From: Sulfuritalea sp. | GTDB lineage: Bacteria > Pseudomonadota > Gammaproteobacteria > Burkholderiales > Rhodocyclaceae | Assembly (NCBI GenBank): GCA_030696505.1 | Contig: JAUYSD010000068.1 | Coordinates: 1 to 36,736 of the forward strand | Length of the DNA stretch: 36,736 nucleotides | Reading direction: 5' to 3' | Shown here: positions 4,607 through 24,359 of the stretch, piece by piece | How positions within the stretch are numbered: position 1 is the stretch's first letter | Layout: every line of letters begins with the position of its first letter | Notes under the pieces: generated by a model | Told to the model about the DNA's origin: nothing | What the model saw: the letters and a program-made list of their open reading frames with translations, nothing else | Databases searched by the model: none | Position numbers and translations under genes: made by a program

Positions 4607-4676
4607 AATACCGCCTTTCCGGTATCGAAAATACGGCTGCCGTAGTATTTCCAACTGCATCCATGCCGGATATTTT
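4607..4676 (+). promoter_or_regulatory. tandem-palindrome promoter of the PAS/Hsp20 operon
   Basis: Two 20-bp palindromic sites: AATACC-N8-GGTATC (4607-4626) and AATACG-N8-AGTATT (4630-4649), starts 23 bp apart. Twenty-one bases after the second lies TATTTT (4671-4676), a plausible -10. The PAS gene begins 72 bp further on. The same geometry precedes four other units in this window, so the site probably belongs to a NarL-family activator overlapping the -35 region (inference). Confidence 0.72.
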
Positions 4677-4747
4677 TCGAGTCTGGATATTCCCGCTTGA
4701 TTTGCGGTCCAGTCAGGTGTGGAACGAGCTAAGCAAGGAGGAAAAGC

Positions 4748-5170
4748 ATGGATGGACAAAACGCCATAGCGCGGCAGCAGGCCGGGGCGACACAGGACGT
4801 ATTCCATGCAGCGGCGAACTTCGTGAATCGAGGCGATTATTGCACCCTGATTCTCGATCGCGTGGGCAGGATTCTCAGTTGCGGCACTCCCGCCGAGCGG
4901 ATATTCGGAGCCGGGCAGGTACGCCTGATCGGGCGCCTGATTTCGGATTTCATTGCCGGATTGTTTCTCAACGGAAGCTCGCCGAGCTACTGTGCGAGGT
5001 ACCTCATGTATCTGTGTGCCGACGGCGAATGGCGCAAATTCGAGGCCAAGGATGCCGCCGGACGGGCTTTTACGGTTGAACTGAATCTGGCGCGCATGGC
5101 ATCGGTCAGCCCGGAGCGCGAAATGTTCCTGCTCAACGTGCGCCGCCCCGAACGGAATTCCGGTCACTAG
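4748..5170 (+). CDS. single PAS-domain protein
   Basis: A 140-residue soluble protein behind a good AAGGAGG. Residues about 28-125 look like one PAS fold: DYCTLILDRVGRILSCGTPAERIFG (first strands and the AER helix), a variable helical stretch, then GEWRKFEAKDAAGRAFTVELNLARM for the closing strands. There is no kinase, GGDEF or DNA-binding domain, so it would act as a stand-alone sensor or adaptor. Cys31 and Cys44 lie in the PAS core and Cys72 follows. It is the first gene of a unit that continues with a Cys-rich protein, DUF2934 and Hsp20. It may feed a signal into the multi-PAS kinase encoded at 21243 (inference). Confidence 0.7.
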   Translation: MDGQNAIARQQAGATQDVFHAAANFVNRGDYCTLILDRVGRILSCGTPAERIFGAGQVRLIGRLISDFIAGLFLNGSSPSYCARYLMYLCADGEWRKFEAKDAAGRAFTVELNLARMASVSPEREMFLLNVRRPERNSGH

Positions 5171-5191
5171 TTGCCGGCCGGCATCGCTGCC

Positions 5192-5527
5192 ATGTATTCC
5201 GTGTACCTGAAAAGCACTCCAGGCGGCGCCGGGCCTGCGGCGGCCGATGCCACGGCCACCGACAGGCAGGCTCTGCTGGCTGGGGTGGCGCGGCTGGGGC
5301 GGCTTTGGCTGGAGCGGATTCCTGCGGCCGATCCGCAGCGCGAACATCTGATCCGGATGGACATCCTGGCCGAGAATCTGATGAAGACCGGCGATCATTC
5401 GCCCGCCGCCATGACAACGGCACGGATGCTGTTGTGCGCCAATTGCCGCTATCTCAATGCGGCTCCGGAAAAATGCGTCGGTCAGGCGCTGAATCGATGC
5501 CCGCTGCTGAAGGCGTCTGGGCCATGA
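5192..5527 (+). CDS. small protein with C-terminal Cys cluster, unknown
   Basis: I use ATG 5192 (111 residues); TTG 5171, directly after the PAS stop, is also in frame. The N-terminal half is Ala/Gly-rich and helical (ATDRQALLAGVARLGRLWLERIPAADPQREHLIRMDILAENLM). The C-terminus holds four cysteines in CANCRYLNAAPEKCVGQALNRC, spaced C-x2-C-x10-C-x8-C, which could bind zinc or a redox metal. No family is recognised. Tight linkage to the PAS gene suggests a partner role. Without homologues the coding call rests on the continuous frame, operon position and Cys pattern. Confidence 0.6.
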   Translation: MYSVYLKSTPGGAGPAAADATATDRQALLAGVARLGRLWLERIPAADPQREHLIRMDILAENLMKTGDHSPAAMTTARMLLCANCRYLNAAPEKCVGQALNRCPLLKASGP

Positions 5528-5603
5528 AATTGGCTGGCGCGTCTGATGCCGGCAGACGGCGCTGAAACTCGTCACTCAATCCAGTTTCATTCGGGAGAAG
5601 AAA

Positions 5604-5840
5604 ATGAAAGCCAGAAGCGAACCGGCAGGCAGGATCAGGGGCGGTACGCCAGCAAAACAGGTCCGAGTCGTGGTCAAACCCGATTCGTCAGCGGAAAACT
5701 ACGAGTGTCCGCGGGAACAAATGATCGCCGAAGCCGCCTATTTCCGCGCCGAGCAGCGCGGCTTTGCACCCGGCAACGAGATGTCCGACTGGCTGCAGGC
5801 CGAGGTGGATGTGGAGAGCATCCTGCACAACCTTCACTAG
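5604..5840 (+). CDS. DUF2934 domain protein
   Basis: A 78-residue protein with GGGAGAAG before its ATG. The C-terminal half, REQMIAEAAYFRAEQRGFAPGNEMSDWLQAEVDVESIL, has the signature of DUF2934: an IAxxAYxxAExRGF helix, a short turn and a DWLxAExEV helix. The function of DUF2934 is not established; such small proteins often accompany stress genes in proteobacteria. The N-terminal 35 residues are basic and probably disordered. It lies 76 bp after the Cys-rich gene and 61 bp before Hsp20, within the same promoter-controlled unit. Confidence 0.85.
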   Translation: MKARSEPAGRIRGGTPAKQVRVVVKPDSSAENYECPREQMIAEAAYFRAEQRGFAPGNEMSDWLQAEVDVESILHNLH

Positions 5841-5901: not shown

Positions 5902-6348
5902 ATGGCCAACATAACCCGTTTCGATCCGTTCAGCGAAATGACGCGTCTCGATCCATTCGGCGATCTCGACAATCTGTTCAAGGGCTTCATGGTGCGCCCG
6001 GTATTTCAGGGCGCGTCGGCAGCGCCGCAAATGAAACTCGACGTGACGGAAGACGACAAGGCCTACACGGTGAAAGCCGAAATTCCTGGCGTCAGGAAAG
6101 AGGACATCCACATCTCGGTGGACGGCAACCTGGTTTCCATCAGCGCCGAGGTGAAGAAGGAAACGGAGAAGAAGGAAGGTAAGAAGGTGGTACACAGCGA
6201 GCGCTATTTCGGCCAGGTGTCGCGCAGCTTCACGCTCGACAAGGAGGTGGAGCAGGGCGCGGCAAGCGCCAAGTACACCGATGGCGTGCTGGAGGCCGTG
6301 CTGCCCAAGAAGCAGGGCACGGCCGCAAGACAGATCGAGGTGTCCTGA
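5902..6348 (+). CDS. Hsp20 / alpha-crystallin-type small heat-shock protein
   Basis: A 148-residue chaperone starting at an ATG with AGGAG upstream. The N-terminal arm (ITRFDPFSEMTRLDPFGDLDNLFKGF) is typical of class A bacterial small heat-shock proteins. The alpha-crystallin domain spans about residues 42-140, beginning MKLDVTEDDKAYTVKAEIPGVRKEDIHISVDGNLVSI and containing the conserved DGVLEAVLPKK near its end. It holds unfolding proteins without ATP for later refolding. A C-terminal I-x-I/V motif is represented by RQIEVS. It closes the PAS operon and converges on the FAD oxidoreductase gene. Confidence 0.95.
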   Translation: MANITRFDPFSEMTRLDPFGDLDNLFKGFMVRPVFQGASAAPQMKLDVTEDDKAYTVKAEIPGVRKEDIHISVDGNLVSISAEVKKETEKKEGKKVVHSERYFGQVSRSFTLDKEVEQGAASAKYTDGVLEAVLPKKQGTAARQIEVS

Positions 6349-6391: not shown

Positions 6392-7510
6392 TCACGCCAG
6401 TCGCAGGTCGGCTTTCCTCGCGTGGAGAAACCAGCGATCCAGCACGACGTGGCGGGTAAACCAGCGACTGCGCAACAACAACCGCGCCAGGCGCTGGCGC
6501 AGGTCTTTCGCGACGACGATGTCGGCGCCGGCCGCGGGGGAGCCATAGCGTGCCTGCAGACGCTGGCTATAAGCCGCCAGGCGCTCGCGGCGATAGACGC
6601 CGGCCGCCTGCAGGACGGTCGTGGCGGCCATCAGGCCGGATTCGATGGCGGGCCGGATCCCCTCGCCGCTGCGCGGACACGCAAGCCCGGCCGCATCGCC
6701 GACCAGTAGCACGCCGTCGTCCAGCAGTTGGCGATCCGAGCGGCCGTAAAGCAGATAGGCGTGACCATGGAACCGCTCAGCGATATCCGGCGGGATGCGA
6801 CCGCGCTGCCTGAGGAAGTCGCAGAAGCGATCGAGCGCCTCCGGCAGCCGATGAGCCTGCTCCATGCCCAGCCCGATATTCAGAAACCGGCCCTTGCGTA
6901 CGCACCAGCCGTAGCCCGATAAGTCCTTGCAGAAATACAGCTCCGGCATCTCGGGCTTGACCTGGCAGGCGGCAATCTGCGCCGCATCCATCTCGAACTC
7001 GACTTCCTTGGCCGTGACTGCCGATTCGCCGGCGCCGAGTTTCGCCCCCAGGTGCCGGGCGACTGGACAAAAATGCCCGCCGGCGCCGATCAGCAGCGGA
7101 GCGCTGATGGCGTCGTTGATCACCCAGAACTTGTCCTCCCGGCGCACCGACGTCACTGCCTGGCCCAGGGCCAGGCGGGCGTCCGTCCGCCGCAGCAGGT
7201 AGTCGTCGAATTCGCAGCGACGGATGCCGTAGCTGACCGTGTCCGCATACCGGGTGGCCAGTGGATGGCCGTCGATCAAGCCGGTGCGAAAGGCGCTGAT
7301 GGCCTGCAGGGTGCACTGCCGCGCGTAGGCCTGCGGATCGATTTCCAGCGTGCGCAGCACGGCAGGCGTGATCCAGCCGGCGCAGACTTTGTCGCGGGGA
7401 AATTCCGCCTTGTCCATCACCATCACGTCCATGCCGCGGCGCCGCAACTGCCAGGCGCAGGAAGAACCCGCCGGGCCGCCGCCGATGATCAGCGCATCGC
7501 AGGTTTCCAT
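6392..7510 (-). CDS. FAD-dependent oxidoreductase, geranylgeranyl-reductase-like family
   Basis: A 372-residue flavoprotein. The N-terminal dinucleotide-binding motif is ALIIGGGPAGSSCAWQLRRRG (about 6-26), followed by MDKAEFPRDKVCAGWITPAVL, where the conserved Cys/Gly loop of this family lies. The second FAD motif is GVLLVGDAAGLACPRSGEGIRPAIESG (about 266-292). This layout fits the class that includes geranylgeranyl reductases and lipid or tailoring oxidoreductases. It starts 9 bp behind the cyclopropane synthase-like gene, so a joint role in modifying membrane lipid acyl chains is likely (inference). The substrate and whether it reduces or oxidises are not readable. No membrane helix is evident. 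Confidence 0.85.
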   Translation of the reverse strand: METCDALIIGGGPAGSSCAWQLRRRGMDVMVMDKAEFPRDKVCAGWITPAVLRTLEIDPQAYARQCTLQAISAFRTGLIDGHPLATRYADTVSYGIRRCEFDDYLLRRTDARLALGQAVTSVRREDKFWVINDAISAPLLIGAGGHFCPVARHLGAKLGAGESAVTAKEVEFEMDAAQIAACQVKPEMPELYFCKDLSGYGWCVRKGRFLNIGLGMEQAHRLPEALDRFCDFLRQRGRIPPDIAERFHGHAYLLYGRSDRQLLDDGVLLVGDAAGLACPRSGEGIRPAIESGLMAATTVLQAAGVYRRERLAAYSQRLQARYGSPAAGADIVVAKDLRQRLARLLLRSRWFTRHVVLDRWFLHARKADLRLA

Positions 7511-7519: not shown

Positions 7520-8830
7520 TCAGGGAGCATCCCGGGTCCAGGGAATGCGGTTGTCGCGGGAGCGGGCGAACAGCACCTGGAACAGCTGCATGTTGCCTGC
7601 CCTGAAGGCCGCCAGCGAACCCGCCAGGTACAGCCGCCAGGTACGCACCACGGTCGCATCGAACATTTGCTCGACCTCCGCGGCGGCGGCCTCGAAGCGC
7701 TGCAGCCAGTGTTCCAGCGTCTTGGCATAGTGCAGGCGCAGATTCTCGACATCGAGCACGGAAAACCCGCAGGGCTCGAAAATGTTCATCATCTGCGACA
7801 GGCTGGGCGGGCAGGCGGCGGGGAAGATATGGCGCTCGGTCCAGGCGTCCAGGGAACGCGGATAGTCGCGTCCGATGGAATGGATCAGGCCGCGCCCGTG
7901 CCCGGCCAGCACCCGGTCGATCACGCGCCCCAGCTCCAGATATCGTTCGGGGCCGACATGCTCCAGCATGCCGACGGAGACGAAGGCGTCGAACTTGCCG
8001 CGCGCGTTGCGGTAGTCGTCCTCGATGAATTCGACCTGGGTTTCCAGGCCCTCGCGGCGGGCACGTTCCCGCGCAAAAGCCATCTGTTCCCGCGAGATGT
8101 TGTAGGCCTGCACCGATACGCCGCAGTGCCTGGCCATATGCAGCGCCAGTGCGCCCCAGCCGCAGCCGGCCTCGATCACCTTGTCGCCGGGCTGCAAGCG
8201 CAGTTTGCGGCAGATATGCTGCATTTTCGCCGCCTGGGCGTCTTCCAGTCCCATGGTCGGCGTCGGGAAATAGGCGCAGGTGTAGATCATGCGTCGATCG
8301 AGCCACAGCTTGTAGAAATCGTTGCCGAAATCGTAGTGGTGATGAATGTTGTCGCGCGCCTGTTGCAGCGAGTTGCGCCGCGCTTCGAGCAGGGCGCCCA
8401 GCCGTGTGCGCTTGCCGCGGCTGCCGTCGTTCCTGGGCAGGGCGCGATACACCACTTCGAGCAGTTGGGCCAGATCGCCTTGCACCTCGATATGCCCAGA
8501 TGCGTAGAGTTCGCCGAACTTGAGGGCCGGATTGGCCAGCAGTCTGAGCAGGGTGCCGCGGTCATGAATCAAAATTCGCGCTTGCCGCGGGGTGGAGCGA
8601 GGCGGAATTGCGCTCCCGTCCCACAACACGAATTGCACCGCCGGGTTGCCGATGGATTCGAGCATACGCGCCACCAGCACCCGCGCCATGGACGACATCG
8701 CAGCGTCCAGGCCCGGCCGGAACTGCGGGTTTGCCGCGCGCCCGCCGTAAGCCGTCTGCCGGTTGAGGGCGCAGGTAGCACTGTTCGCGCTGTTCGAATC
8801 GGTCGCTGGATTGGTAAGCTGTTGGCTCAT
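7520..8830 (-). CDS. cfa: cyclopropane-fatty-acyl-phospholipid synthase family protein
   Basis: A 436-residue S-adenosylmethionine-dependent enzyme. I start at the ATG preceded by TGGAGGGG; an in-frame ATG at 8911 lies at the predicted transcription start and is unlikely. N-terminal residues 40-140 form the lipid-binding part (LWDGSAIPP, FGELYASGHIEVQGDLAQLL). The catalytic half begins NIHHHYDFGNDFYKLWLD, then the SAM motif VIEAGCGWGALALHMA, YNISREQMAFA, FDAFVSVGMLEHVG and FPAACPPSLSQM. It would add a methylene across double bonds of phospholipid acyl chains, a stationary-phase and acid-stress response in other bacteria. It has its own tandem-palindrome promoter and is followed by an FAD oxidoreductase. 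Confidence 0.9.
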   Translation of the reverse strand: MSQQLTNPATDSNSANSATCALNRQTAYGGRAANPQFRPGLDAAMSSMARVLVARMLESIGNPAVQFVLWDGSAIPPRSTPRQARILIHDRGTLLRLLANPALKFGELYASGHIEVQGDLAQLLEVVYRALPRNDGSRGKRTRLGALLEARRNSLQQARDNIHHHYDFGNDFYKLWLDRRMIYTCAYFPTPTMGLEDAQAAKMQHICRKLRLQPGDKVIEAGCGWGALALHMARHCGVSVQAYNISREQMAFARERARREGLETQVEFIEDDYRNARGKFDAFVSVGMLEHVGPERYLELGRVIDRVLAGHGRGLIHSIGRDYPRSLDAWTERHIFPAACPPSLSQMMNIFEPCGFSVLDVENLRLHYAKTLEHWLQRFEAAAAEVEQMFDATVVRTWRLYLAGSLAAFRAGNMQLFQVLFARSRDNRIPWTRDAP

Positions 8831-8920
8831 AGTTCGCCCCTCCATTTCCTGCGGCTTGTCCGACCTTGCCACTACTGTCTGTGACGACCTACGAGTCATC
8901 GGAGTTCCCATGCCACGCCG

Positions 8921-8990
8921 ATAATAGTCATTCGGCGACAGGCCGGATATACCGTAAGTTCCGTATTGCCCATACCCGTGCGGAGGTAGC
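8921..8990 (-). promoter_or_regulatory. tandem-palindrome promoter of cfa and the FAD oxidoreductase
   Basis: Sites TATACC-N8-CGTATT (8948-8967) and CATACC-N8-GGTAGC (8971-8990) start 23 bp apart. On the minus strand, 21 bases beyond the proximal site, lies TATTAT (plus coordinates 8921-8926) as the -10. The cfa ATG is at 8830, giving a leader of about 85 bases. This is the leftward half of the gene-free 8831-9179 region. An 8-bp inverted repeat, GGTAGCGC (8985-8992) and GCGCTACC (9005-9012), lies between this and the rightward promoter and shares bases with the distal site. Confidence 0.7.
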
Positions 8991-9018: not shown

Positions 9019-9088
9019 GGTACCCGGTTACGGGTATTTCAAATACTGCGGCGCGGGTATTTGCAGGTCTGCCGAGGCTCCCTAAGCT
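9019..9088 (+). promoter_or_regulatory. tandem-palindrome promoter of the YbhB-to-repair-gene operon
   Basis: Sites GGTACC-N8-GGTATT (9019-9038) and AATACT-N8-GGTATT (9042-9061) start 23 bp apart; 21 bases on lies TAAGCT (9083-9088) as the -10. The 3-bp gap between the two sites creates an incidental GTATTT-C-AAATAC palindrome (9035-9047). The predicted leader to GTG 9180 is about 85 bases, close to those of cfa and the BCAM0308-like gene, which helped choose that start. Confidence 0.7.
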
Positions 9089-9179: not shown

Positions 9180-9770
9180 GTGAACTCCATCGGTCGCGGG
9201 AAGGCCTTGTGCGCAGTCGGCCTGCTCGGCATCATGTTCGCCACGGCTGCCGAATGTGCTTCGTTGCACCCGGATGGCAGGAAGGAAGGCCCGATGTCCC
9301 TTACGCTCAGTTCGACGTCATTTCCGGCTGCGGGCCTGATTCCCGCGCGTTGCACCTGCGATGGTGAGGACATCTCGCCGCAGCTTGTCTGGGCAGGTCT
9401 GCCCGCCGGCACCCAAAGCCTGGTTCTGATCGTCGACGATCCGGACGCGCCGGACCCGGCAGCGCCGACCATGACCTGGGTACACTGGCTCCTTTACAAC
9501 CTTCCGCCTTCCGCCGCTGGCCTGGCCGAGGGCCTTGCGGTCAGGGATCTGCCTGCGGGAACCCGGCAGGGGCTGAACGACTGGCGGCGCACGGGTTACG
9601 GCGGACCCTGCCCACCCATCGGCAGGCATCGCTACGTGCACAAGCTTTTTGCCCTGGATGCGCTGCTGCCTGACCTGAAGCAACCGACCAAGTCTGCGCT
9701 GGAGCGCGCCATGCAAGGCCATGTCCTGGCGCACGCCGAACTGGTCGGCTACTACCAGCGGCGGCCTTGA
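9180..9770 (+). CDS. YbhB/YbcL-family (PEBP, Raf-kinase-inhibitor-like) protein
   Basis: The PEBP-like domain starts at SLTLSSTSFPAAGLIPARCTCDGEDISPQLVWAGLP and contains SLVLIVDDPDAP, the ligand-pocket segment MTWVHWLLYNLPP, and GYGGPCPPIGRHRYVHKLFALD near the end; these are diagnostic. I use GTG 9180 (AAAGGA nine bases upstream), which adds a plausible signal peptide (GKALCAVGLLGIMFATAAECA) and predicts a periplasmic protein like YbcL. The alternative is ATG 9294 with GGAAGG before it, giving a 158-residue cytosolic protein. Biochemical function in bacteria is poorly defined. It leads a long same-strand run; nicotinamidase begins 27 bp after its stop. Confidence 0.85.
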   Translation: MNSIGRGKALCAVGLLGIMFATAAECASLHPDGRKEGPMSLTLSSTSFPAAGLIPARCTCDGEDISPQLVWAGLPAGTQSLVLIVDDPDAPDPAAPTMTWVHWLLYNLPPSAAGLAEGLAVRDLPAGTRQGLNDWRRTGYGGPCPPIGRHRYVHKLFALDALLPDLKQPTKSALERAMQGHVLAHAELVGYYQRRP

Positions 9771-9797
9771 TCCGGCGAGCGGCTGAGGTGCGTGCCC

Positions 9798-10373
9798 GTG
9801 AGTCCTCGACTGCAAGCTGGCGACGCGCTGCTGATCATTGACGTGCAGCGCGATTTCCTGCCGGGCGGCAGCCTGGCGGTGCCGGACGGCGACGCGGTCG
9901 TGGCGCCGCTCAACGCCTGGATTTCCCGCTTCAGCGCCGGGGGTTTGCCGATATTCGCGACCTTCGACCGGCATCCTGCGGACCATTGTTCGTTTCGCGA
10001 CCAGGGCGGTGCGTGGCCGGCGCATTGCATCGCCGGCACGCCGGGGGCAGGTTTTGCCGACGACCTGGCATTGCCCGCCGGTGTTGTGCGGATGGCCAAG
10101 GCCACCGCGAGCCATGCCGATGCCTATTCGGGATTTTCCGGCACTGAGCTGCATCTGCAATTGCAGTGGGCGATGGTGCGCCGGCTGTTTGTCGGCGGGC
10201 TGGCCACCGATTACTGCGTGCTCCAGTCGGTACTGGATGCGCGGCGCCTAGGCTATGAGGTAGTGCTGTTGCGCGATGCGATGCGTGCCGTCGATCTGCG
10301 GGCAGGCGACGGCGAACGGGCCATCGCGACCATGGTCGCTGCCGGCGCCGTCATGGCGGAGGGCCTGCCGTGA
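9798..10373 (+). CDS. pncA: nicotinamidase-like cysteine hydrolase (isochorismatase fold)
   Basis: About 191 residues, from GTG 9798 (GAGG nine bases upstream; GTG 9792 is also in frame). The catalytic triad can be read as Asp in LLIIDVQRDFLPGG, Lys in RMAKATASHADAYSGFSGT and Cys in GLATDYCVLQSVLDA. Metal-binding Asp and His lie in ATFDRHPADHCSF. This pattern is that of PncA-type nicotinamidases, which convert nicotinamide to nicotinate. The next gene, overlapping by 4 bp, is nicotinate phosphoribosyltransferase, the following step of the Preiss-Handler salvage pathway, which strongly supports the assignment over other isochorismatase-fold hydrolases. Confidence 0.88.
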   Translation: MSPRLQAGDALLIIDVQRDFLPGGSLAVPDGDAVVAPLNAWISRFSAGGLPIFATFDRHPADHCSFRDQGGAWPAHCIAGTPGAGFADDLALPAGVVRMAKATASHADAYSGFSGTELHLQLQWAMVRRLFVGGLATDYCVLQSVLDARRLGYEVVLLRDAMRAVDLRAGDGERAIATMVAAGAVMAEGLP

Positions 10374-11710
10374 GGCCGACCGAAGAGAGCGCCCTGCTCA
10401 CCGATCTCTACCAGCTCACCATGCTCCAGGCCTATTTCGACCAGGGCATGGAAGCCACCACGGTGTTCGAATTCTTCGTGCGCAAGTTGCCGCAGCGTCG
10501 CAATTTCCTGGTCGCCGGGGGCCTCGAAATGGCGCTGGATTTTCTCGAAGGGCTGCACTTCAGCGCAGATGAGCTCGACTGGCTGGCCGGCTGCGGCCGC
10601 TTCAGCGCTGCCTTCGTCAAGTCGCTGGTCGGGCTGCGTTTCACCGGCGAGGTGCAGGCGATGGACGAAGGCACGGTGTTCTTCGCCGACGAACCCATCC
10701 TGCGCGTCGTGGCCCCCCTGCGCGAGGCACAACTGGTGGAATCGCGCATCATCAATCTGCTGCAGTTCCAGACCCTGGTCGCCTCGAAGGCAGCGCGGGT
10801 GCGCCTGGCCGCGCGCGACAAGCTGCTGGTCGATTTCGGCCTGCGCCGCGCCCATGGCGCCGAGGCGGCCTTGCTCTCGGCGCGGGCGAGCTTCGTCGCG
10901 GGCTTCGACGGCAGTTCGAACCTGCTGGCCGGCATGCGCTGGGATATCCCTGTGTACGGCACCATGGCGCATTCCTTCGTCCAGACCCACGCCAGCGAAC
11001 TCGCGGCCTTCGAGCATTTCGCCCGCTCCCATCCCGCCGCCACCACGCTGTTGATCGACACCTACGACACCGAAGCCGCGGCGCGTGCGCTGATCCCGCT
11101 GGCGCATCGGCTGCGCGCGGATGGCATCGCTGTCCAGGCGGTGCGCCTCGACAGCGGCGATCTCGACGATCATGCCCATCGTGTGCGCGCCATTCTCGAC
11201 GCCGGCGGCGCCAAGGACATCAAGATATTTGCCAGCGGCAATCTCGACGAATACGCGGTGCAGGCGCTGCTCTACGCCGCCGCACCGATCGACGGCTTCG
11301 GCGTCGGCACGCGCATGAACACCTCCGCCGACCAGCCCTATCTCGACTGCGCCTACAAGCTGCAGGAATACGCCGGCCTCGCACGGCGCAAGCGTTCGGA
11401 GGGCAAGGCGACCTGGCCCGGCCGCAAGCAGGTGTTCCGCCGCGAAGACGGTGCCGGGCAGATGGCGGGTGACACGCTGACGCTGGAGGGCGACCGGCAG
11501 CCGGGCAGGCCGCTGCTCGCCACGGTGATGCGCGGCGGCCGCCGCGTCGAGCCGTCGCCGCTGCTGGCTGCAGTGCGGGCGCATGCGCTGGCGCAACTCG
11601 ATGCGCTGCCGCCGGCGCTGCGCAGCATCGATAACGCCTTTCCCTATGCCGTGGAGGTGGCCGCACCGCTCCGCGACCTGGCGCGGCAGGTGGACCAGCG
11701 GCGCACCTGA
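10370..11710 (+). CDS. pncB: nicotinate phosphoribosyltransferase
   Basis: A 446-residue enzyme whose GTG start overlaps the nicotinamidase stop. Family segments seen are TDLYQLTMLQAYFDQGMEATTVFEFFVRKLP at the N-terminus, VDFGLRRAHG, YGTMAHSFVQTH (His of the phosphorylated-His region), LLIDTYDTEAA, VRLDSGDLDDHA, IFASGNLDEY and DGFGVGTRMNTSADQPYLDCAYKLQEY. It makes nicotinate mononucleotide from nicotinate and PRPP, driven by ATP. The pair with PncA restores NAD from nicotinamide, which is released by NAD-consuming reactions. In this unit it sits upstream of nucleic-acid repair genes. PolX begins 1 bp after its stop. Confidence 0.95.
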   Translation: MRPTEESALLTDLYQLTMLQAYFDQGMEATTVFEFFVRKLPQRRNFLVAGGLEMALDFLEGLHFSADELDWLAGCGRFSAAFVKSLVGLRFTGEVQAMDEGTVFFADEPILRVVAPLREAQLVESRIINLLQFQTLVASKAARVRLAARDKLLVDFGLRRAHGAEAALLSARASFVAGFDGSSNLLAGMRWDIPVYGTMAHSFVQTHASELAAFEHFARSHPAATTLLIDTYDTEAAARALIPLAHRLRADGIAVQAVRLDSGDLDDHAHRVRAILDAGGAKDIKIFASGNLDEYAVQALLYAAAPIDGFGVGTRMNTSADQPYLDCAYKLQEYAGLARRKRSEGKATWPGRKQVFRREDGAGQMAGDTLTLEGDRQPGRPLLATVMRGGRRVEPSPLLAAVRAHALAQLDALPPALRSIDNAFPYAVEVAAPLRDLARQVDQRRT

Positions 11711-11711
11711 G

Positions 11712-13439
11712 ATGCCGACCCACAACGCCGATATCGCGGCGATCTTCACCGAGATCGCCGACCTGCTGGATTTGCAGCAGGCCAACCCGTTCCGCATCCG
11801 TGCCTACCGCAACGCCGCACGCATGGTCGGCGACCTGGGGCGAGAAATCCGCGCCATGGTCGAGCGCGGCGAGGATCTGACCGAGTTGCCGGGCATCGGC
11901 GACGACCTCGCGGGGAAAATGCGCGAGATCGTCGACACGGGCAAATGCCGGGCCCTGCAAAAACTCCAGGCCGAGTTGCCGCCGGCGATCAAGGAACTGC
12001 TGCATGTACCCGGGCTCGGGCCAAAGCGGGTGCGCATGCTCTGGCATGAACTCGACGTGCAGACACTGGAGCAACTGGCGCGTGCCGCCCGCGACGGCCG
12101 CATCCGCGATCTGCCGGGCTTCGGCGCGAAAATCGAGGCGAATATCCTGCAGGCGGTCGAGGCGCACCTGTCCAAGGCGCGGCGCATCAAGCTGGCGACC
12201 GCGGCGCAGTACGCCACGTCCCTGATGGCCTGGCTTTCCGCTGCGACGGGTGTCAGCCGCATCGAACTGGCCGGGAGCTTCCGCCGCTGCCGCGAGACGG
12301 TGGGCGACCTCGACATCCTGGCGGTGGCGGCAGACGGCAGCGCCGTCATGGCGCGCTTCGTCGCCTACGACGAGGTGGCCGAGGTGCTGTCGCAGGGACC
12401 GACGCGCGCCAGTGTGGTCCTGAAATGCGGACTGCAGGTGGATTTGCGCGTGGTCGATGCAGGCGCTTACGGCGCGGCGCTGTGCTATTTCACCGGCTCC
12501 CGCGCGCACAACATCGCACTGCGCCGGCTGGCGCAGGAGCGCGGGCTCAAGCTCAACGAATATGGCGTGTTTCGCGGTCGCGAACGCATCGCCGGTGCCA
12601 GCGAGGAGTCCGTCTATGGCGCGCTGGGCCTGCCCTTCATCGCGCCCGAGCTGCGCGAGGATCGCGGCGAGATCGCGGCGGCGCGCGCCGGGCGACTACC
12701 GCAGTTGGTGCAGTTGGGCGATCTGCGCGGCGACCTGCATGCCCACACCACGGCGACCGACGGCCACCATACGCTGGAACAGATGGCGTTGGCGGCGAAG
12801 GCGCTGGGGCTTTCCTACCTGGCCATCACCGAGCACTCGCGACGCCTGGCAATGGCGCACGGCCTCGATCCGCGCCGGCTCGCCGAACAGTGCGACGCGA
12901 TCGACCGCCTGAACGCAAGGCTGGACGGGATGGTGCTGCTGAAGGGCATCGAGGTGGACATCCTCGAAGATGGCAGTCTCGACCTGCCAGATGCTTCGCT
13001 GGCCAGGCTCGACCTGGTCATCGGCGCCGTGCACAGCCGTTTCGACATGACGCGGGCCAGGCAGACCGCGCGCATCCTGCGCGCCATGGACAACCGCTAC
13101 TTCACGCTGCTCGCGCACCCGACCGGCCGCGTCATCGAGAGCCGCGAGCCCTATGACGTCGATATGCTGCGCGTGATTCGCCATGCGCGGCAGCGCGGCT
13201 GCTTCCTCGAACTAAACGCCCATCCCGAACGCCTCGACCTGCTCGACAGCCATTGCATCATGGCGAAGGAGGAAGGCGTGCTGGTTGCGATCAACTCGGA
13301 CGCCCATGCCCGCGAGGACTTCGCCCACCTGCGGCTGGGCATCGGGCAGGCGCGGCGCGGCTGGCTGGCGGCGGCGGACGTGCTCAACACGCGGCAACTG
13401 CCGGAATTGCGTCGCCTGCTCGCGGGTGTGAGGCGATGA
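11712..13439 (+). CDS. polX: bacterial DNA polymerase X with PHP exonuclease domain
   Basis: A 575-residue protein of usual PolX length. The N-terminal part holds an 8-kDa-like domain and helix-hairpin-helix repeats (LTELPGIGDDLAGKMREI, LLHVPGLGPKRVRML, IRDLPGFGAKIEANIL). The nucleotidyltransferase core shows GSFRRCRETVGDLDILA with the metal-binding Asp pair, and later GLQVDLRVV. The PHP domain begins about residue 337: GDLHAHTTATDGHHTLEQM, AITEHS, LKGIEVDIL, LAHPTGR, ELNAHPERLDL and INSDAH, which should bind metals and give 3'-5' exonuclease or phosphoesterase activity. Role: base-excision or gap repair. The stop overlaps the archease start by 4 bp. Confidence 0.96.
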   Translation: MPTHNADIAAIFTEIADLLDLQQANPFRIRAYRNAARMVGDLGREIRAMVERGEDLTELPGIGDDLAGKMREIVDTGKCRALQKLQAELPPAIKELLHVPGLGPKRVRMLWHELDVQTLEQLARAARDGRIRDLPGFGAKIEANILQAVEAHLSKARRIKLATAAQYATSLMAWLSAATGVSRIELAGSFRRCRETVGDLDILAVAADGSAVMARFVAYDEVAEVLSQGPTRASVVLKCGLQVDLRVVDAGAYGAALCYFTGSRAHNIALRRLAQERGLKLNEYGVFRGRERIAGASEESVYGALGLPFIAPELREDRGEIAAARAGRLPQLVQLGDLRGDLHAHTTATDGHHTLEQMALAAKALGLSYLAITEHSRRLAMAHGLDPRRLAEQCDAIDRLNARLDGMVLLKGIEVDILEDGSLDLPDASLARLDLVIGAVHSRFDMTRARQTARILRAMDNRYFTLLAHPTGRVIESREPYDVDMLRVIRHARQRGCFLELNAHPERLDLLDSHCIMAKEEGVLVAINSDAHAREDFAHLRLGIGQARRGWLAAADVLNTRQLPELRRLLAGVRR

Positions 13440-13873: not shown

Positions 13874-13880
13874 GGGCGGC

Positions 13881-18586: not shown

Positions 18587-19363
18587 TCAGGATTCAGCGC
18601 CGGCTGCCGCGCAGGCGGCTTGGGCGTCGGCCACGCACTGCTGCATGCGACGCCAGTGCGAGCCTTGCCAGAAGACGCGATGGCAGACATCGCGGCCGGT
18701 GAAATGCTGCTGGCTGTCGCGCACCGACGGCGGCAGGCGGTCCAGCACGGCGGCCTTGTCGATCGGGTGCAGCGGGGCGTTGCAGACCAGGCACAGGCTG
18801 AAAGGCCGGGCGCTGCGCGCCAGGTCGAGGCGGACCATGATCTCGCGCAGTTGCTCGGGCGGGTGCACGGCACGGACATAGCAGCCATGAGTAATGCTGC
18901 GCAGCTTGAGCAGATCGCGGTCGCGCGTGAGCACGATGCGCGCCTCACGGGCGGCGATCTCCGCGATCTCCCGGTCGTGGTAGCCGTTGTCATAGCGCGT
19001 ATCGAAGCCGGCCATGCGCAGCAGGCGGGCCAGTCCGCCCAGATGGGCATCGGCAATGAATTGCGGCGTGCGCAGCGGCCGCTCACGGACACGCAGCAGG
19101 GGCGTGACGTCGAGGGCTTCGAACTTCGGGTAAACCGCGACGCGATCCTGGTCCCGCAGCCGGCGGTCGAAACCGACCGACTCGCCATTGACCAGGATCA
19201 GTTCGACTTCGGTATGCGGCACGCCGAGAGCCTCGATCATGTGCTTGGTGGTCGCGGCCTCGGCGCAGGCTACGCTGAACTCCCGGCGGCGGCGCGCCGG
19301 AGGCAGGAAGTCGTTGAGTTCCTCGTAGAAGTGAAATGTCGCCGTCACCATGGCCTTGCTCAT
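18587..19363 (-). CDS. Mut7-C RNase protein with N-terminal ubiquitin-like domain
   Basis: A 258-residue two-domain protein. Residues about 5-85 form a beta-grasp, ubiquitin-like region (TATFHFYEELNDFLPP, EVELILVNGESVGFDRRLRDQDRVAVYP). Residues about 100-250 are Mut7-C, a PIN-fold RNase: FIADAHLGGLARLLRMAGFDTRYDN, EARIVLTRDRDLL with acidic residues of the PIN core, then a zinc-binding tail CLVCNAPLHPID and DVCHRVFWQGSHWRRM. It probably cleaves or senses RNA. It ends the minus-strand unit that begins with the BCAM0308-like gene and converges on the membrane protein gene. Start: ATG with GGAGG very close (2 bases); ATG five codons on is an alternative. Confidence 0.88.
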   Translation of the reverse strand: MSKAMVTATFHFYEELNDFLPPARRRREFSVACAEAATTKHMIEALGVPHTEVELILVNGESVGFDRRLRDQDRVAVYPKFEALDVTPLLRVRERPLRTPQFIADAHLGGLARLLRMAGFDTRYDNGYHDREIAEIAAREARIVLTRDRDLLKLRSITHGCYVRAVHPPEQLREIMVRLDLARSARPFSLCLVCNAPLHPIDKAAVLDRLPPSVRDSQQHFTGRDVCHRVFWQGSHWRRMQQCVADAQAACAAAGAES

Positions 19364-19414: not shown

Positions 19415-20020
19415 TCAAGCAAGCAGCGCCAACAGATCCAGCAAAAGCTTGCGCGGCAGCCGCAGGCCATGCTCCGCCGCAAGCCGCCGCGCCACCTCGT
19501 CGGCGTCGGCGGGGCGCGGACTCATGGCGCCAATGAGATTGCCGACATCCTCCGCGATCGCCCAAGGATAGATTATCCAGCGCCAGTTCACGACCTTCCG
19601 CGCGTAGTAATCGGGCAGGTAGGGTGAGACGGTCTTGTAATGCAGCACGGCGCTCCGCAGCTCGGCCGGCGCACCGCGGCTGTTCAAGTGCGCCAGCGCG
19701 ACGGCAAAGGTTTCTCCGCTGTCGGCGACATCGTCCACCAGCAGCACGCGGCGTCCGCGCACATCGGCGGCGAGCGGATAGCGCACCTGCGCGCGCTTCG
19801 GTTGCCGCGCCGACTGGTAGTGTTCGATCTTGAAGCTGGTGAGATCCATCTGGCCGAGGAAATCGGACAGGAGGCGTCCGGGCACCCAGCCGCCGCGACC
19901 GATGGCGACGATGATATCGGGCCGGTAGCCGGATTCGGCGATCCCACGCGCCAGCTTGAGCGCGAGCGCGTGCACCGAATTCCAGCTGATGAGCTGGAAA
20001 GGTTCTGGTTTGCTCTGCAT
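19415..20020 (-). CDS. phosphoribosyltransferase (type I PRTase fold)
   Basis: A 201-residue protein. PDIIVAIGRGGWVPGRLLSDFLG is the strand and loop after the hood, and RRVLLVDDVADSGETFAVAL (about 91-110) is the PRPP-binding motif of type I phosphoribosyltransferases. The sequence resembles xanthine/hypoxanthine-type enzymes (VLHYKTVSPYLPDYYARKV, WIIYPWA). It would transfer phosphoribose to a purine base, but orphan members in stress clusters are not characterised, so the substrate is open. It lies 17 bp behind the small membrane protein and 51 bp before the Mut7-C gene. The C-terminal RLPRKLLLDLLALLA is an unusual hydrophobic tail. Confidence 0.88.
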   Translation of the reverse strand: MQSKPEPFQLISWNSVHALALKLARGIAESGYRPDIIVAIGRGGWVPGRLLSDFLGQMDLTSFKIEHYQSARQPKRAQVRYPLAADVRGRRVLLVDDVADSGETFAVALAHLNSRGAPAELRSAVLHYKTVSPYLPDYYARKVVNWRWIIYPWAIAEDVGNLIGAMSPRPADADEVARRLAAEHGLRLPRKLLLDLLALLA

Positions 20021-20286: not shown

Positions 20287-20787
20287 TCAGCGCGTCCAGT
20301 GCACACGCAGCAGATTCTCGTCCGGCTTGTAGTGGAATTCAAGCGCACCCTGGTAGGCGTGATGCACTGCATCACCTATGCTGCGGGCGAGATGCACGTC
20401 GGTGGTGGTGACCGTCACGCCGTCGTCCTGCGCTTCCACTGCCATGATGCGCTTGAGCGGGTGTGTCTGCCGTTCGCGTTGCTCTTCGTGATGCACGAGG
20501 CTCATGATCTCCTCGCGGTGGGCGGCGAAGAAGGTTCCCGCCAGACTGACGAAGCCGGCCGGATAGTGGTCCTTGACGCGATGGCAGGCCGGGCAGGTTT
20601 CCCGATGCGCGTCCGGCGGAACTTCGCCCTGGAGCCAGCGTCCCTCGCGGAATATCGCGCCGCAGTCCGGGCAGACTGTCGGTTCGGGCAGCTTGCCCCT
20701 GAGCTTGTATGTATCGTGCGTCTGTTCCTGCAGCAGGCGGTCACGACGGACCGGGTGAAAACCTGGATGAGGGAGGTGGCTGTTCAT
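20287..20787 (-). CDS. BCAM0308-type zinc-ribbon protein
   Basis: A 166-residue soluble protein. Residues 39-42 (CPDC, followed by GAIFREGRWLQG) and about 65-68 (CPACHRVKDHYPAGFV) form a two-CxxC zinc ribbon. The C-terminal half has REEIMSLVHHEEQRERQTHPLKRIMAVEAQDDGVTVTTTDVHLARSIGDAVHHAYQGALEFHY, reminiscent of an Nmd3-like or RNA-binding fold. I recognise it as the family named after Burkholderia cenocepacia BCAM0308, which I recall as part of that organism's low-oxygen-activated region; the molecular role is not known. It is first in a unit with a membrane protein, PRTase and Mut7-C RNase, and has a tandem-palindrome promoter. Confidence 0.8.
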   Translation of the reverse strand: MNSHLPHPGFHPVRRDRLLQEQTHDTYKLRGKLPEPTVCPDCGAIFREGRWLQGEVPPDAHRETCPACHRVKDHYPAGFVSLAGTFFAAHREEIMSLVHHEEQRERQTHPLKRIMAVEAQDDGVTVTTTDVHLARSIGDAVHHAYQGALEFHYKPDENLLRVHWTR

Positions 20788-20879: not shown

Positions 20880-20948
20880 AGTCTAGGTTTTGCGCCGGAC
20901 CTGTAAATACCAAACGGGTGGTATTCCGGCTAATGGTTTCGGGGTATT
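20880..20948 (-). promoter_or_regulatory. tandem-palindrome promoter of the BCAM0308-type operon
   Basis: The proximal site is a perfect AATACC-N8-GGTATT (20906-20925). The distal site (20929-20948) keeps only the GGTATT half but at exactly the 23-bp register. On the minus strand TAGACT (plus coordinates 20880-20885) lies 20 bases beyond the proximal site as the -10. The operon's first ATG is at 20787. Confidence 0.7.
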
Positions 20949-21242
20949 TCCCGCAGCATGGGCGTCGTCGATAATCTGCGGCCGCGACAGACTCAGTGGG
21001 GTATTGCCATTGCGCGGTATAGTAGGTGCGCTTTCCGCTCCGTTGCTTGCGGCGGCTGGTTGCGATAGGTGCCCTGATTGCGACGCCAGAATAAGGAAAC
21101 CCGTGCTATCCCGGGAAATTGCCAAGAATGCTCCCGCCGGCCGCGCCGTAACTGCGGCGACCGCGGTTCTGCCGCATCGCATTGCGAAGCTGCGGGCGGA
21201 ACCGCGTCAACGCGGCGATGCCTTGCCGCAGGAGCCGAATTC
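20949..21242. other. gene-free leader of the histidine-kinase gene
   Basis: Part of the 455-bp gap 20788-21242. Beyond the operator pair I see only isolated GGTATT/GGTATA half-sites near 21000 and 21017 and a TATAGT (21018-21023) that could be a -10 for the kinase gene without a clear -35. No convincing gene, hairpin with T-run or structured leader was found. Confidence 0.35.
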
Positions 21243-23627
21243 ATGGCTTTGAAGCCGCATCTGCCCAGGGATGGCGATGCTGCTGCCGGGTTGTCGCGCC
21301 GCGTCGACAATCTGCTGCATGAACTGCACGAACAGCGTAGCGAGCTGGAGTTGCGCAACGACGAGTTGCGCCATTCGCAGGCCGACGTGCAGACGGGACT
21401 GGAACGCTATACCGATTTATACGACCTTTCACCAGTCGGCCTGGTCACCCTGGACAGCGACGGAGCGATCGTCCGGGTGAACCTGACCGCGGCGCTGCTG
21501 CTCGGGCGGGAGCGCAGCAGGCTGATCGGCAGTCGCTTTGCGGAGTTCGCAACCGCAGCCGATCGCCCGGGGTTCCACACCTTCCTGCAGAGTGTCCATG
21601 CGGGTGAGGCGAGGCAAAGCTGCGAACTGGAACTGACGATCGACGGGCAACTGTCGCGGACCGTCCAGATCGATGCCACGCTGTCCGCCGACCGCAGGGA
21701 GTGCCGCCTGGTTGTGGCGGACATCAGCGAGCGCAAGCTCGCGGCAGCGATGCTGCTCGAATCGAGCCGGTTCAACGAGCAGGTGATCGCGAACGTGCAG
21801 GAAGGTATCGTGGTCTATGGTCCCGACCTGCGCTATCGGGTGTGGAATACGTATATGGAGATATTCACCGGAATGAAGGCCTGCGACGTTCTCGGGCGCC
21901 ATCCGCGGGATGTCTTCCCTTTCCTTGAGGAGCGCGGCGTATTTGCCAACCTGGAAAGCGCCCTCGCCGGCGGTGTCGCCAAATCCGTCACCTTTCCTTT
22001 CCAGGTCAGGCAAACCGGTCGCGCCGGCTGGGCGCTGGACCGCACCGCGCCGCTGCGCAACGCCAGGGGCGAGATCATCGGCGTGATCGGCACGGTAACC
22101 GACGTCACCGAACAAAGACGTGCGCAGGAAGCCCTGACGGCCTCGACCCAATTTGTCCGCAGCCTGATCGATTCGATGCAGGATGGGTTTTCCGCAGTGG
22201 ACCTCAAGGGTGTGCATCTCGACGTAAACCCGGCGCTGTGCCGCATGACCGGTTTTTCGCGCGAGGAGCTCATCGGCAGCGGCGTGCCCCATCCTTACTG
22301 GCCACCGGAGCAGTACGAGTTCATTCTTGGGGAGTTCCGCCGGGTATCGCAGGGCGAGCTGGGCGAGCTCGAATTGATCTTCATGCGCAGGAACGGCGAG
22401 CGTTTCCCGGTAATGATCACGCCCTCCGCGGTGCGCGACGGGAACGGCCAAATCGTCAGTTACGCGGCCACCGTGAAGGACGTGACCGAGCGCAAGCAGG
22501 CAGAGGAAATCCTCGCGGCTTCCCAGCGGCGCTTCCGGGACATCGTGAATACCACCGATGGCATCGTCTGGGAGGCCGACGCAAAAACCTTCGATTTCAC
22601 CTTCATTAGCCGGCAGGCAGAGCGCCTGCTGGGCTATCCCGTCACGGACTGGTTGCAGCCGGGGTTCTGGGTCAGAAACCTGCATCCCGACGACAAGGAG
22701 TGGGCGCCCGAGTATTGCCTGTCCTGCACCGAGCGTATGATGCCGCACGATTTCGAATACCGCTTCATGGCGCAAGACGGCCGCACGGTCTGGCTGCACG
22801 ACATTGTCACGGTGGTCGAAGAGAACGGCGCACCACGCTGGTTGCGCGGCATCATGGTGGATATCACCCACCGCAAGCAGGCCGAACAGCAGTTGCGCGA
22901 AATGGCCGAAAGCCTTGAATTCAAGGTGGCCGAGCGCACCGCGCAGTTGCGCAGGCTGTCGGCGCAGCTGGCCATGACCGAAGAGCGCGAGCGGCGCAAG
23001 CTGGCGCAGGACCTGCACGACAATCTCGGCCAGCTGCTGGCCGTCATGAAGATCAAGCTCACCTCGATATCCGCCGGCGGGCTGCAGCCCCTGATCGATC
23101 AGGTCGTCGCGCTGGTGGCCCAGGCCGACCAGGCGGCGCGCAACATCACCCAGCAGCTGAGCCCGCCGGTGCTATACACGCTCGGCCTGGTGCCGGCGCT
23201 GCAATGGCTGGCCGAGGACATCGAGCGCGTCTACGGCGTCATGGTCCATGTCGACCACGACGACTGCCGCCGGCGCCTGGTCGAGGAGGTGCAGGCGGTG
23301 CTCTACCGCGCGGCGCGCGAGCTGCTGATCAATGTCGCCAAGCACGCCGGGGTGAGGGATGCCAGCCTTTCCTGCCTGTGCAGCGACAGCCGGCTGATGT
23401 TGGTGGTGAGCGATGCCGGATGCGGTTTCGAGCCGGCGGACCATCTTGGCGCCTGGCCCGGATATCAAAGTTTCGGGCTGCGCTCGATCTACGAACGGAT
23501 TGCCAACATCGGCGGCGAAATGGAAGTTGACAGCAGCCCCGGCAACGGCACCACGATCACCCTGAGCGTGCCCCATTCCATTGGCGATAAGGAGATCTGC
23601 AATGATCCGCATAATGCTTGTCGATGA
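21243..23627 (+). CDS. cytosolic four-PAS NarL-type sensor histidine kinase
   Basis: 794 residues from ATG 21243 (AGGAG nine bases upstream). No membrane helix is present, so the signal is internal. An N-terminal coiled coil (RRVDNLLHELHEQRSELELRNDELRHSQADVQ) is followed by four PAS domains at about 50-165, 175-295, 300-425 and 430-555, each ending in the linker type seen after PAS/PAC units (VVADISERKLA, TVTDVTEQRRA, TVKDVTERKQA, IMVDITHRKQA). The HisKA_3 phosphoacceptor is EERERRKLAQDLHDNLGQLLAVMKIKL, and the ATPase domain has LLINVAKHAGV and SDAGCGFEP. Its gene overlaps the response regulator by 26 bp. It lies among the units bearing the tandem palindromes. Confidence 0.92.
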   Translation: MALKPHLPRDGDAAAGLSRRVDNLLHELHEQRSELELRNDELRHSQADVQTGLERYTDLYDLSPVGLVTLDSDGAIVRVNLTAALLLGRERSRLIGSRFAEFATAADRPGFHTFLQSVHAGEARQSCELELTIDGQLSRTVQIDATLSADRRECRLVVADISERKLAAAMLLESSRFNEQVIANVQEGIVVYGPDLRYRVWNTYMEIFTGMKACDVLGRHPRDVFPFLEERGVFANLESALAGGVAKSVTFPFQVRQTGRAGWALDRTAPLRNARGEIIGVIGTVTDVTEQRRAQEALTASTQFVRSLIDSMQDGFSAVDLKGVHLDVNPALCRMTGFSREELIGSGVPHPYWPPEQYEFILGEFRRVSQGELGELELIFMRRNGERFPVMITPSAVRDGNGQIVSYAATVKDVTERKQAEEILAASQRRFRDIVNTTDGIVWEADAKTFDFTFISRQAERLLGYPVTDWLQPGFWVRNLHPDDKEWAPEYCLSCTERMMPHDFEYRFMAQDGRTVWLHDIVTVVEENGAPRWLRGIMVDITHRKQAEQQLREMAESLEFKVAERTAQLRRLSAQLAMTEERERRKLAQDLHDNLGQLLAVMKIKLTSISAGGLQPLIDQVVALVAQADQAARNITQQLSPPVLYTLGLVPALQWLAEDIERVYGVMVHVDHDDCRRRLVEEVQAVLYRAARELLINVAKHAGVRDASLSCLCSDSRLMLVVSDAGCGFEPADHLGAWPGYQSFGLRSIYERIANIGGEMEVDSSPGNGTTITLSVPHSIGDKEICNDPHNACR

Positions 23628-24246
23628 CCACACGATGGTAAGGGAAGCCTTGCGCGTGGTGCTGGAACAGGACAAGAGCATGGAGGTGGTGGCGGCAGTC
23701 GGCGATGGCGAGACAGCCTTGCAGTTGGCCAACGAACTGGCGCCCACCGTGGTGGTGATGGATGTTGCGCTGCCTGGGCAGTCGGGCATCGAAACCACGC
23801 GGCGCCTGCTGGCCAGGCATCCGCAGATCAAGGTGCTGGCCTTGTCCACCTACCTCGATCGGCGCATCATCCAGCAGATGCTCGATGTCGGTGCCAGCGG
23901 CTATATCGCCAAGTCGGCAGCCGGCGCCGAGCTGAAACAGGGCATACGCAACGTCGTCGCCGGCCGCAGCTACCTGTGCTCAGAGGTCGCCGCGCTGGTC
24001 GCCGACGGCCTGCGCGACCGCCACAGCGCAGGGGGGCATCCGGAGCCCAGTTCCCTGTCGCGGCGCGAAGTGCAGGTGGCCACCCTGCTGGCGGAAGGCA
24101 AGAGCGCGCCCGACATCGCGGCCGAACTGCATATCGCGCCGAGCACGGTCGACGTGCACCGGCGCAACCTGATGCGCAAGCTGGAGTTGCACAATGTGGT
24201 GGAACTGACCCGCTATGCCATTCGCACCGGCCTGGTCCTGCCCTGA
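23602..24246 (+). CDS. NarL/FixJ-family response regulator
   Basis: A 214-residue regulator with AAGGAG before its ATG. Receiver: acidic pair Asp8-Asp9, phospho-acceptor Asp54 in VVVMDVALPGQSG, Ser/Thr in LALSTY and Lys104 in GYIAKSAAGAEL. The C-terminal LuxR-type helix-turn-helix (about 148-207) reads LSRREVQVATLLAEGKSAPDIAAELHIAPSTVDVHRRNLMRKLEL. Dimers of such domains bind short inverted repeats near -35 elements. The nearest candidate target is the perfect AATACC-N8-GGTATT 68 bp after its stop, and four further operator pairs exist in the window. The kinase partner is encoded immediately upstream. Confidence 0.94.
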   Translation: MIRIMLVDDHTMVREALRVVLEQDKSMEVVAAVGDGETALQLANELAPTVVVMDVALPGQSGIETTRRLLARHPQIKVLALSTYLDRRIIQQMLDVGASGYIAKSAAGAELKQGIRNVVAGRSYLCSEVAALVADGLRDRHSAGGHPEPSSLSRREVQVATLLAEGKSAPDIAAELHIAPSTVDVHRRNLMRKLELHNVVELTRYAIRTGLVLP

Positions 24247-24290
24247 GGCAAGCCTCCTCAAGGCATTCGCGCCAGATCGGGCAGGCAAGC

Positions 24291-24359
24291 ATTACCGGGA
24301 CGGCGGTTAGCAAAATACCTGTCTGCCGGTATTGCCAAGCGCTATGGCCTGAATAGAAT
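24291..24359 (+). promoter_or_regulatory. tandem-palindrome promoter of the RHH-like/78-aa unit
   Basis: Sites ATTACC-N8-GGTTAG (24291-24310, weak) and AATACC-N8-GGTATT (24314-24333, perfect) start 23 bp apart; TAGAAT (24354-24359), 20 bases on, is a good -10. The first candidate start codons are TTG 24395 and ATG 24470. Confidence 0.7.

Follow-up and report, generated by a model that had tools for sequence, protein, structure and literature searches.

A 36,736-nucleotide stretch of a Sulfuritalea sp. genome (contig JAUYSD010000068.1, hereafter the window) carries five tandem operator pairs, each composed of two NarL-type 16-bp sites of the form TACC-N8-GGTA, together with genes for a sensor histidine kinase and a response regulator that is likely to bind them. 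A sequence-only reading of this DNA had reported five such pairs with a 23-bp spacing, and all of them were found where it had placed them. Pair 1 (4607..4649, forward strand) comprises the sites 4607-4626 and 4630-4649. Pair 2 (8948..8990, reverse strand) faces a gene encoding Cfa and is divergent from pair 3 (9019..9061, forward strand), their starts being 71 bp apart. Pair 4 (20906..20948, reverse strand) faces a BCAM0308-family gene, and pair 5 (24291..24333, forward strand) lies about 45 bp past the stop codon of the regulator gene and points away from it. Eight of the ten single sites are within three mismatches of AATACC-N8-GGTATT; the two beyond this limit, at 20929 and 24291, are the copies that had been called degenerate. 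Back-to-back pairs serving divergent units were also seen elsewhere (loci L090, L069 and L074), with starts 71 bp apart in the window and in genome G027, 73 bp in G007 and 84 bp in G012.

The proposed binder, a NarL/FixJ-type response regulator (23602..24246, forward strand), contains a receiver domain (PF00072, E 4.9e-25) and a LuxR-type helix-turn-helix domain (GerE-type, PF00196, E 2.3e-20), as evidenced in profile matches, which likewise identified the neighbouring kinase (21243..23627, forward strand) as a PAS x4 - HisKA_3 - HATPase protein. The first gene of unit 1 encodes a 140-AA PAS-like protein (4748..5170, forward; weak PAS / sensory_box match) that is present in most island loci examined, followed by a 118-AA protein without Pfam match (5171..5527, forward) and an Hsp20 of the island type (5902..6348, forward; PF00011). 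On the reverse strand, pair 2 precedes a Cfa-type cyclopropane fatty acid synthase (7520..8911; PF02353), whose true start is probably at about 8830-8845, as alignments begin at residues 22 and 28, and downstream of it lies a FAD oxidoreductase of the geranylgeranyl-reductase family (6392..7510, reverse; TIGR02032, just under the cut-off). Unit 3, in which the genes mostly overlap or lie no more than 25 bp apart, runs on the forward strand from a YbhB/PEBP family protein (9297..9770; PF01161) through a PncA-like isochorismatase-family hydrolase (9792..10373; PF00857), the nicotinate phosphoribosyltransferase PncB (10370..11710), a PolX-type polymerase with a PHP domain (11712..13439), archease (13436..13873; PF01951), the RNA ligase RtcB (13866..15323; PF01139) and the protein-isoaspartate methyltransferase Pcm (15320..16066; PF01135) to a membrane protein with a spermidine-synthase-like part (16178..18574; weak, far below cut-off). 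The unit of pair 4, on the reverse strand, consists of the BCAM0308-family protein (20287..20787; lxa_BCAM0308 equivalog NF040826, 217.6 bits against a cut-off of 100), a small protein, a phosphoribosyltransferase (19415..20020; PF00156) and a Mut7-C / Ub-Mut7C protein (18587..19363; profile match). Pair 5 is followed on the forward strand by a 152-AA protein of unassigned family (24395..24853), the true start of which is uncertain, and a conserved small protein of 88 AA residues (24857..25123).

The tandem-pair observation was confirmed as real. The window contains five pairs at no more than two mismatches over 16 core bases, against none in 100 first-order Markov simulations. Across its own genome (4.45 Mb draft, 398 contigs), six pairs were detected at this threshold, one of them on contig C100; the 37-kb window, which makes up 0.8% of the genome, holds the other five (binomial probability ~2e-10). 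Two further places were found at three mismatches, and a backwards-read control of the same genome returned five places at up to three mismatches, one of these at up to two. A mismatch-free pattern, TACC-N8-GGTA-N5-7-TACC-N8-GGTA, gave no match in the own genome. Random placement had been named beforehand as the finding that would speak against the proposal; in the genome scan, the pairs were not scattered at random. FNR boxes were also considered as an explanation in the window and set aside, as 14 loose matches (up to two mismatches) were obtained and none is at a pair.

For analysis of the promoter design, 66 pairs were collected from fetched loci and the window, of which 54 are non-redundant, with L113 (G035) and L114 (G017:C88) excluded from the count. 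The pairs were oriented by spacer asymmetry before the flanks were inspected, a rule by which L072 and L100 were probably misoriented, given TATGTT at the mirrored offset. The spacing spectrum, with 67 pairs at 23 bp, is biased because the loci were fetched for having 23-bp pairs; a natural variant with sites 25 bp apart was seen at the BCAM0308 promoter of G022 (L109 12457). The two sites of a pair are unlike, the distal one reading TACCGG-N4-CCGGTA, often followed by GC, and the proximal one AATAC(G/C)-N8-GGTATT, and the 54 non-redundant pairs gave the consensus TACCGG-N4-CCGGTAGC-NNN-AATAC(G/C)-N8-GGTATT. The half-sites are the most conserved part; a central stretch of two A/T bases in the distal site and a -10 box stand out as well.

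The five -10 hexamers claimed previously are all present, starting 23-24 nt past the final GGTA (20-21 bp beyond the 20-bp site): TATTTT (4671..4676, forward), TATTAT (8921..8926, reverse) and TAAGCT (9083..9088, forward) at offset 24 of pairs 1, 2 and 3, and TAGACT (20880..20885, reverse) and TAGAAT (24354..24359, forward) at offset 23 of pairs 4 and 5. In the non-redundant set, the hexamer most like a -10 box begins at offset 23-25 from the pair in 47/54 cases versus 8/54 on the mirror side, and a strict TAnnnT occupies these offsets in 41/54. A profile model, R1, was then built from 52 pairs with the -10 region left out, L082 (with TATATT at the mirrored offset) and L092 having been dropped by eye. 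Within the window, R1 matched pair 1 (4608-4652, E 6.9e-7), pair 3, pair 4 and pair 5, and pair 2 lies outside the matches at E <=0.01. All 17 genus matches outside the 66 pattern pairs, some of which are homologues of training promoters, carry TAnnnT at offset 23-24, where the single best hexamer also falls in 13 of them. Among 45 matches examined from other genera, TAnnnT was found at 23-25 in 33, exactly at 24 in 29, with just two occurrences at other positions within the first 44 offsets; ten of the remaining 12 have CAnnnT or GAnnnT exactly at 24. Chance, or a dispersed repeat with no role in regulation, is an extremely improbable source of the pairs: two-copy palindromes can come about by chance, as the five control matches at up to three mismatches illustrate, but the simulations contradict this explanation, as do the -10 boxes in the held-out genus matches and in other genera, and the conserved bases are limited to half-sites, with many pairs lying upstream of genes.

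These data support the earlier proposal that five transcription units share a single promoter design. Taking the -10 boxes as reference for the predicted start sites puts the centres of the two sites near -43.5 and -66.5, and the proximal site overlaps a -35 hexamer that is weak. Agreement with TTGACA at 17 bp amounts to 3-4 of six bases in 18/47 promoters and to two or fewer in 29/47. The overlap lends support to the suggestion of an activator-type site at the -35 region, the regulator being expected to activate and not to repress. A repressor occupying the pairs, with the proximal site covering the -35 region and blocking the polymerase until a signal arrives, would use the same overlap and would be compatible with the better -35 matches, but the -10 box is strongly conserved and the -35 hexamer weak, and adjacent upstream sites with the proximal one on -35 are the layout of the DevR activator in the available part of its description (PMC3029386); repression is thus quite unlikely. 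A possible second -10 box, GATAAT (20970..20975, forward strand), lies toward the kinase gene at the mirrored offset 24 of pair 4, as it does in G001 and G027, and could let one pair drive the kinase-regulator genes too, a putative autoregulation.

Genomes were compared at two levels, 'genus' and 'family' denoting the groupings of the genome set scanned (NCBI puts Sulfuritalea in Sterolibacteriaceae). Orthologues of the regulator (>=71% identity) occur in 19/31 genus genomes, as many as have pairs at no more than two mismatches (19/31). R1 matches were obtained in all 19 regulator-positive genomes, and none in ten of the 12 others, a co-occurrence with a hypergeometric chance of ~1.5e-6, uncorrected for shared descent. 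Among the 19 orthologue loci, 16 have a pair whose start lies 33-55 bp downstream of the regulator gene. Of 21 aligned orthologues, 20 have an identical recognition-helix segment and all 21 keep the phosphoacceptor aspartate (MD motif, Asp54). The best full-length structure matches were VraR (5hev), DevR and NarL, VraR (E 3.3e-30) being closer than DevR (E 6.6e-26). Relatives at 71-99% identity in titled records belong mostly to Sulfuritalea, Rhodocyclales or Rhodocyclaceae metagenome-assembled genomes, with a few labelled otherwise, e.g. Accumulibacter and Burkholderiaceae. Co-occurrence and adjacent pairs support the view, already put forward in the sequence-only reading, that the regulator at 23602 is the likely binder. 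The kinases beside it have a credible frame in 19/21 loci (window plus L065-L161) and range from 394 to 866 AA; in the ten that were scanned, the kinase core is the same and the number of PAS matches ahead of it differs. Different sensors may feed one output because the adjoining kinases vary in this way before a common core.

The regulator and its units make up an accessory island flanked by ompR and acnB. Kinase and regulator, pairs and island genes lie between these flanks in the six regulator-positive genomes with both in view (the window, G001, G002, G017, G027 and G028), versus an ompR-acnB distance of only 718-753 bp in four regulator-less genomes (G008, G018, G025 and G030); in two other regulator-less genomes (G006 and G019), ompR was not in view at the locus. 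Between the window and G027, the regulators are 99% identical and the acnB proteins 83%, which may reflect island transfer or stronger constraint. Between the island and acnB (26443-31088), the window also encodes an AAA/SMC-like ATPase (978 AA), for which PADLOC gave a weak LmuB match (E 2.5e-15), and a SIR2-like protein (570 AA) without PADLOC match, possibly a defence system; part of the ATPase recurs at 86% identity in G007 (L223). A second acnB-like copy (77% identity) sits at a contig edge of the own genome (G000:C68:1-1686), maybe owing to contamination or mixed strains.

The same promoters were found outside the window, so that a 'local' regulon, as initially suggested, is too narrow a description. 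In the own genome, they precede a PAS-GGDEF-EAL gene (C100:26091) and a gene for a 93-AA protein (C242:3926), and they recur in other genera. Within the genus, the BCAM0308-type gene (7/31 genomes, E 1e-20), a nitroreductase/SagB-like gene (8/31, E 1e-30; below family cut-offs) and Cfa (3/31, E 1e-60) occur in regulator-positive genomes only, and at these thresholds none of the three was found without the regulator in the 31 genomes. A pair lies upstream of the BCAM0308-type gene in six of seven genomes, the seventh having the 25-bp variant, about 200 bp upstream of the nitroreductase-like gene in 8/8, and upstream of Cfa in 3/3. Island-type Hsp20 (79-100% identity) is present in ten genomes, nine of them regulator-positive and the tenth G003, where a hemerythrin gene also stands behind a pair promoter; of these genes, Hsp20 alone is found in regulator-less genomes, and there it is of a different type (52-57% identity).

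The earlier proposal of a macromolecule-repair set fits the genes of the window but does not provide a common denominator across the targets elsewhere, namely nitroreductase/SagB-like, hemerythrin, phasin, rubrerythrin, cytochrome, GGDEF/EAL and Hsp20-Cfa genes. Low oxygen or energy limitation accounts for this target set no less well, and either may be the signal. The lxa equivalog and the hemerythrin, rubrerythrin and nitroreductase-like targets point to low oxygen; Cfa, Hsp20 and the phasins point to stationary phase or energy limitation. No operator pair was found upstream of BCAM0308 homologues in 19 loci outside the genus. Five of these (L286, L287, L289, L291 and L292) have a perfect FNR-like box, TTGA-N6-TCAA, 106-151 bp upstream of the matched stretch, two of the five boxes being identical and from one genus, which suggests FNR-type control of the BCAM0308-family genes there. 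At up to one mismatch, the box is present in 8/19 loci versus 13% of control stretches scored at that same threshold.

Beyond the genus, 8/30 genomes contain one or two pairs at no more than two mismatches, about the control level. An R1 scan of 150 family genomes, run like all whole-genome R1 scans over more than 40 genomes with stricter filters by which weak matches are lost, gave matches in 16, four of the genus and 12 from ten other genera. Outside the genus, R1 yielded 51 matches, and the 45 that were examined come from eight genomes of six genera. With TAnnnT, the targets there are Hsp20-Cfa, a PAS-like protein-Hsp20 arrangement, hemerythrin, rubrerythrin, one phasin, cytochrome b561, a multihaem cytochrome, GGDEF/EAL proteins and the kinase-regulator genes of G497. 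Promoters whose box is CAnnnT at 24 precede two further phasins, one of them before the G507 regulator, and a cytochrome bd gene. A ferritin gene has a pair without any such -10 box. In 4/8 genomes examined outside the genus, a pair shares its locus with the gene for a regulator homologue (47-71% identity): in G465 (71%), in G437 (54%), in G497, where the pair is followed by the kinase and then the regulator (68%), and in G507, where it is followed by the phasin and then the regulator (47%). In the regulator tree, G465 and G497 fall inside the group of the window regulator. The operator code probably belongs to a regulator subfamily, because the G437 and G507 regulators fall in sister lineages.

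Building on the pair, the fixed -10 box, the co-occurrence with the regulator and the island, all of which were computed directly, it is proposed that the pairs serve as operators for an accessory two-component system that activates sigma-70 promoters in a low-oxygen or energy-limitation regulon, a reading to which we assign a probability of roughly 0.77. In this proposal, the multi-PAS kinase (21243) would phosphorylate the NarL/FixJ-type regulator (23602), two dimers of which would occupy the tandem 16-bp sites, with centres near -66.5 and -43.5 provided that the -10 boxes are correctly assigned. The proximal dimer, overlapping the weak -35 hexamer, would help sigma-70 polymerase to start at the -10 box 23-25 nt beyond the site. 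Such a portable promoter module would drive the island units and a few genes elsewhere, and would most likely be on when oxygen or energy is short.

Several observations weigh against this proposal. Two genus genomes, G003 (82% complete) and G009 (81%), have R1 matches but no orthologue, the G009 match being single and marginal (E 0.002). No pair lies near the regulator at L161 (75%) or L162 (G016, 71%), although G016 has four R1 matches elsewhere in its genome, and the sole pair of L151 is ~3.5 kb upstream of the regulator. The R1 scan of 30 genomes outside the genus returned no match, 134 of the 150 family genomes were without one, and no FNR-like box at up to one mismatch was found in 11 of the 19 BCAM0308 loci outside the genus. 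Regulator and pairs could, moreover, be common by descent; in an acnB tree, which covers 27/31 genomes with partial sequences of one gene, the regulator state needs five changes and the pair state four. The remaining points bear on the possibility that a different NarL-type regulator, either a paralogue or a NarL/NarP-like protein, occupies these sites, the island regulator being a mere neighbour. Sites of this geometry are typical of NarL proteins in general, the VHRRNxMxKL helix recurs in several paralogues that could recognise part of the sites, and the G437 and G507 regulators that stand beside a pair belong to sister lineages also holding genus paralogues. Against this, G024 and G035 have paralogues but lack a genome-level R1 match, one weak locus-level match (E 0.002) lying ~5 kb from the G035 paralogue, and it is the island regulator that predicts pairs in every genome where it occurs and adjoins them at most of its loci; another binder is therefore considered unlikely.

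A wider interpretation, to which we give somewhat less than even odds, extends the proposed regulon to a family-wide dormancy or low-oxygen system in Sulfuritalea and related bacteria. A NarL-type subfamily with interchangeable PAS heads would act on a portable cassette of two unlike operators, spaced by exactly 23 bp, with its -10 box at +24, which would have spread with accessory islands and recruited genes by cassette placement, including the BCAM0308-type gene that is apparently FNR-controlled in some other bacteria; the system would amount to a functional equivalent of DosR in Proteobacteria, undescribed in the literature searched. That literature, which excluded most subscription journals, yielded no description of the tandem-pair motif among the papers listed; a search by motif letters retrieved one Rhizobium rosR paper, and the available parts of two papers on regulation in related bacteria describe FNR/CRP motifs only. 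The sequence rule, two NarL-type sites 23 bp apart with a fixed-offset -10 box, is precise enough to predict the regulon from raw genomes, and the one proposed switch ties together uncharacterised genes such as the BCAM0308 family, the 140-AA PAS protein and the 152-AA and 93-AA proteins. Should low oxygen prove to be the signal, promoter-cassette evolution and the replacement of FNR control become directly testable.

Three known systems resemble parts of this arrangement. The NarL heptamer consensus is TACYYMT. The sites described here share with the NarL/NarP 7-2-7 sites of Escherichia coli, for which the accessible part of PMC4549865 gives TACCCCTAAAGGGGTA as an example, the 16-bp inverted heptamers with a 2-bp gap and the TACC...GGTA ends. 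Unlike that consensus, positions 5-6 here favour G/C and G, with inner GG and CC, and the promoters differ from those of NarL/NarP in having two sites 23 bp apart and unrelated target genes. The lxa locus of Burkholderia cenocepacia, with ~50 genes and six universal stress proteins in the part of its description available (PMC9733578), has in common with the island the BCAM0308 equivalog and a stress-type gene block. In contrast, no universal stress protein, and hence no cluster of them, was found among the window island proteins scanned, some small open reading frames being outside the scan, and the 19 BCAM0308 loci outside the genus are without the pair, five of them having perfect FNR-like boxes in its place.

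DosS and DosT, the sensors of the DosR/DevR system of Mycobacterium, are haem-GAF sensor kinases, and its Dev box has a G-rich inverted core. The kinase of the window shows four PAS stretches without a GAF match, the half-site is TACC/GGTA without that core, and two unlike operators stand at a fixed 23 bp in a proteobacterial accessory island; the absence of a universal stress protein from the island proteins scanned is a further difference. For the related OsdR of Streptomyces, the available part of PMC5069765 gives the consensus AGGGCCGATCGGCCCT. By box sequence and kinase type, the system would fall outside the DosR/DevR group. In mechanism, DosR/DevR appears to be the closest known system: it too has a NarL-subfamily regulator with targets clustered round the regulator genes, and its contents are partly similar, e.g. 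a small heat shock protein and a nitroreductase (PMC5069765, as far as available). DevR is described, in the section of PMC3029386 at hand, as binding cooperatively to at least two adjacent boxes, the proximal one overlapping -35, an arrangement mirrored here with starts predicted from the -10 boxes. If the low-oxygen reading holds, the system would represent an independent answer of environmental Proteobacteria to the problem that DosR solves in mycobacteria.

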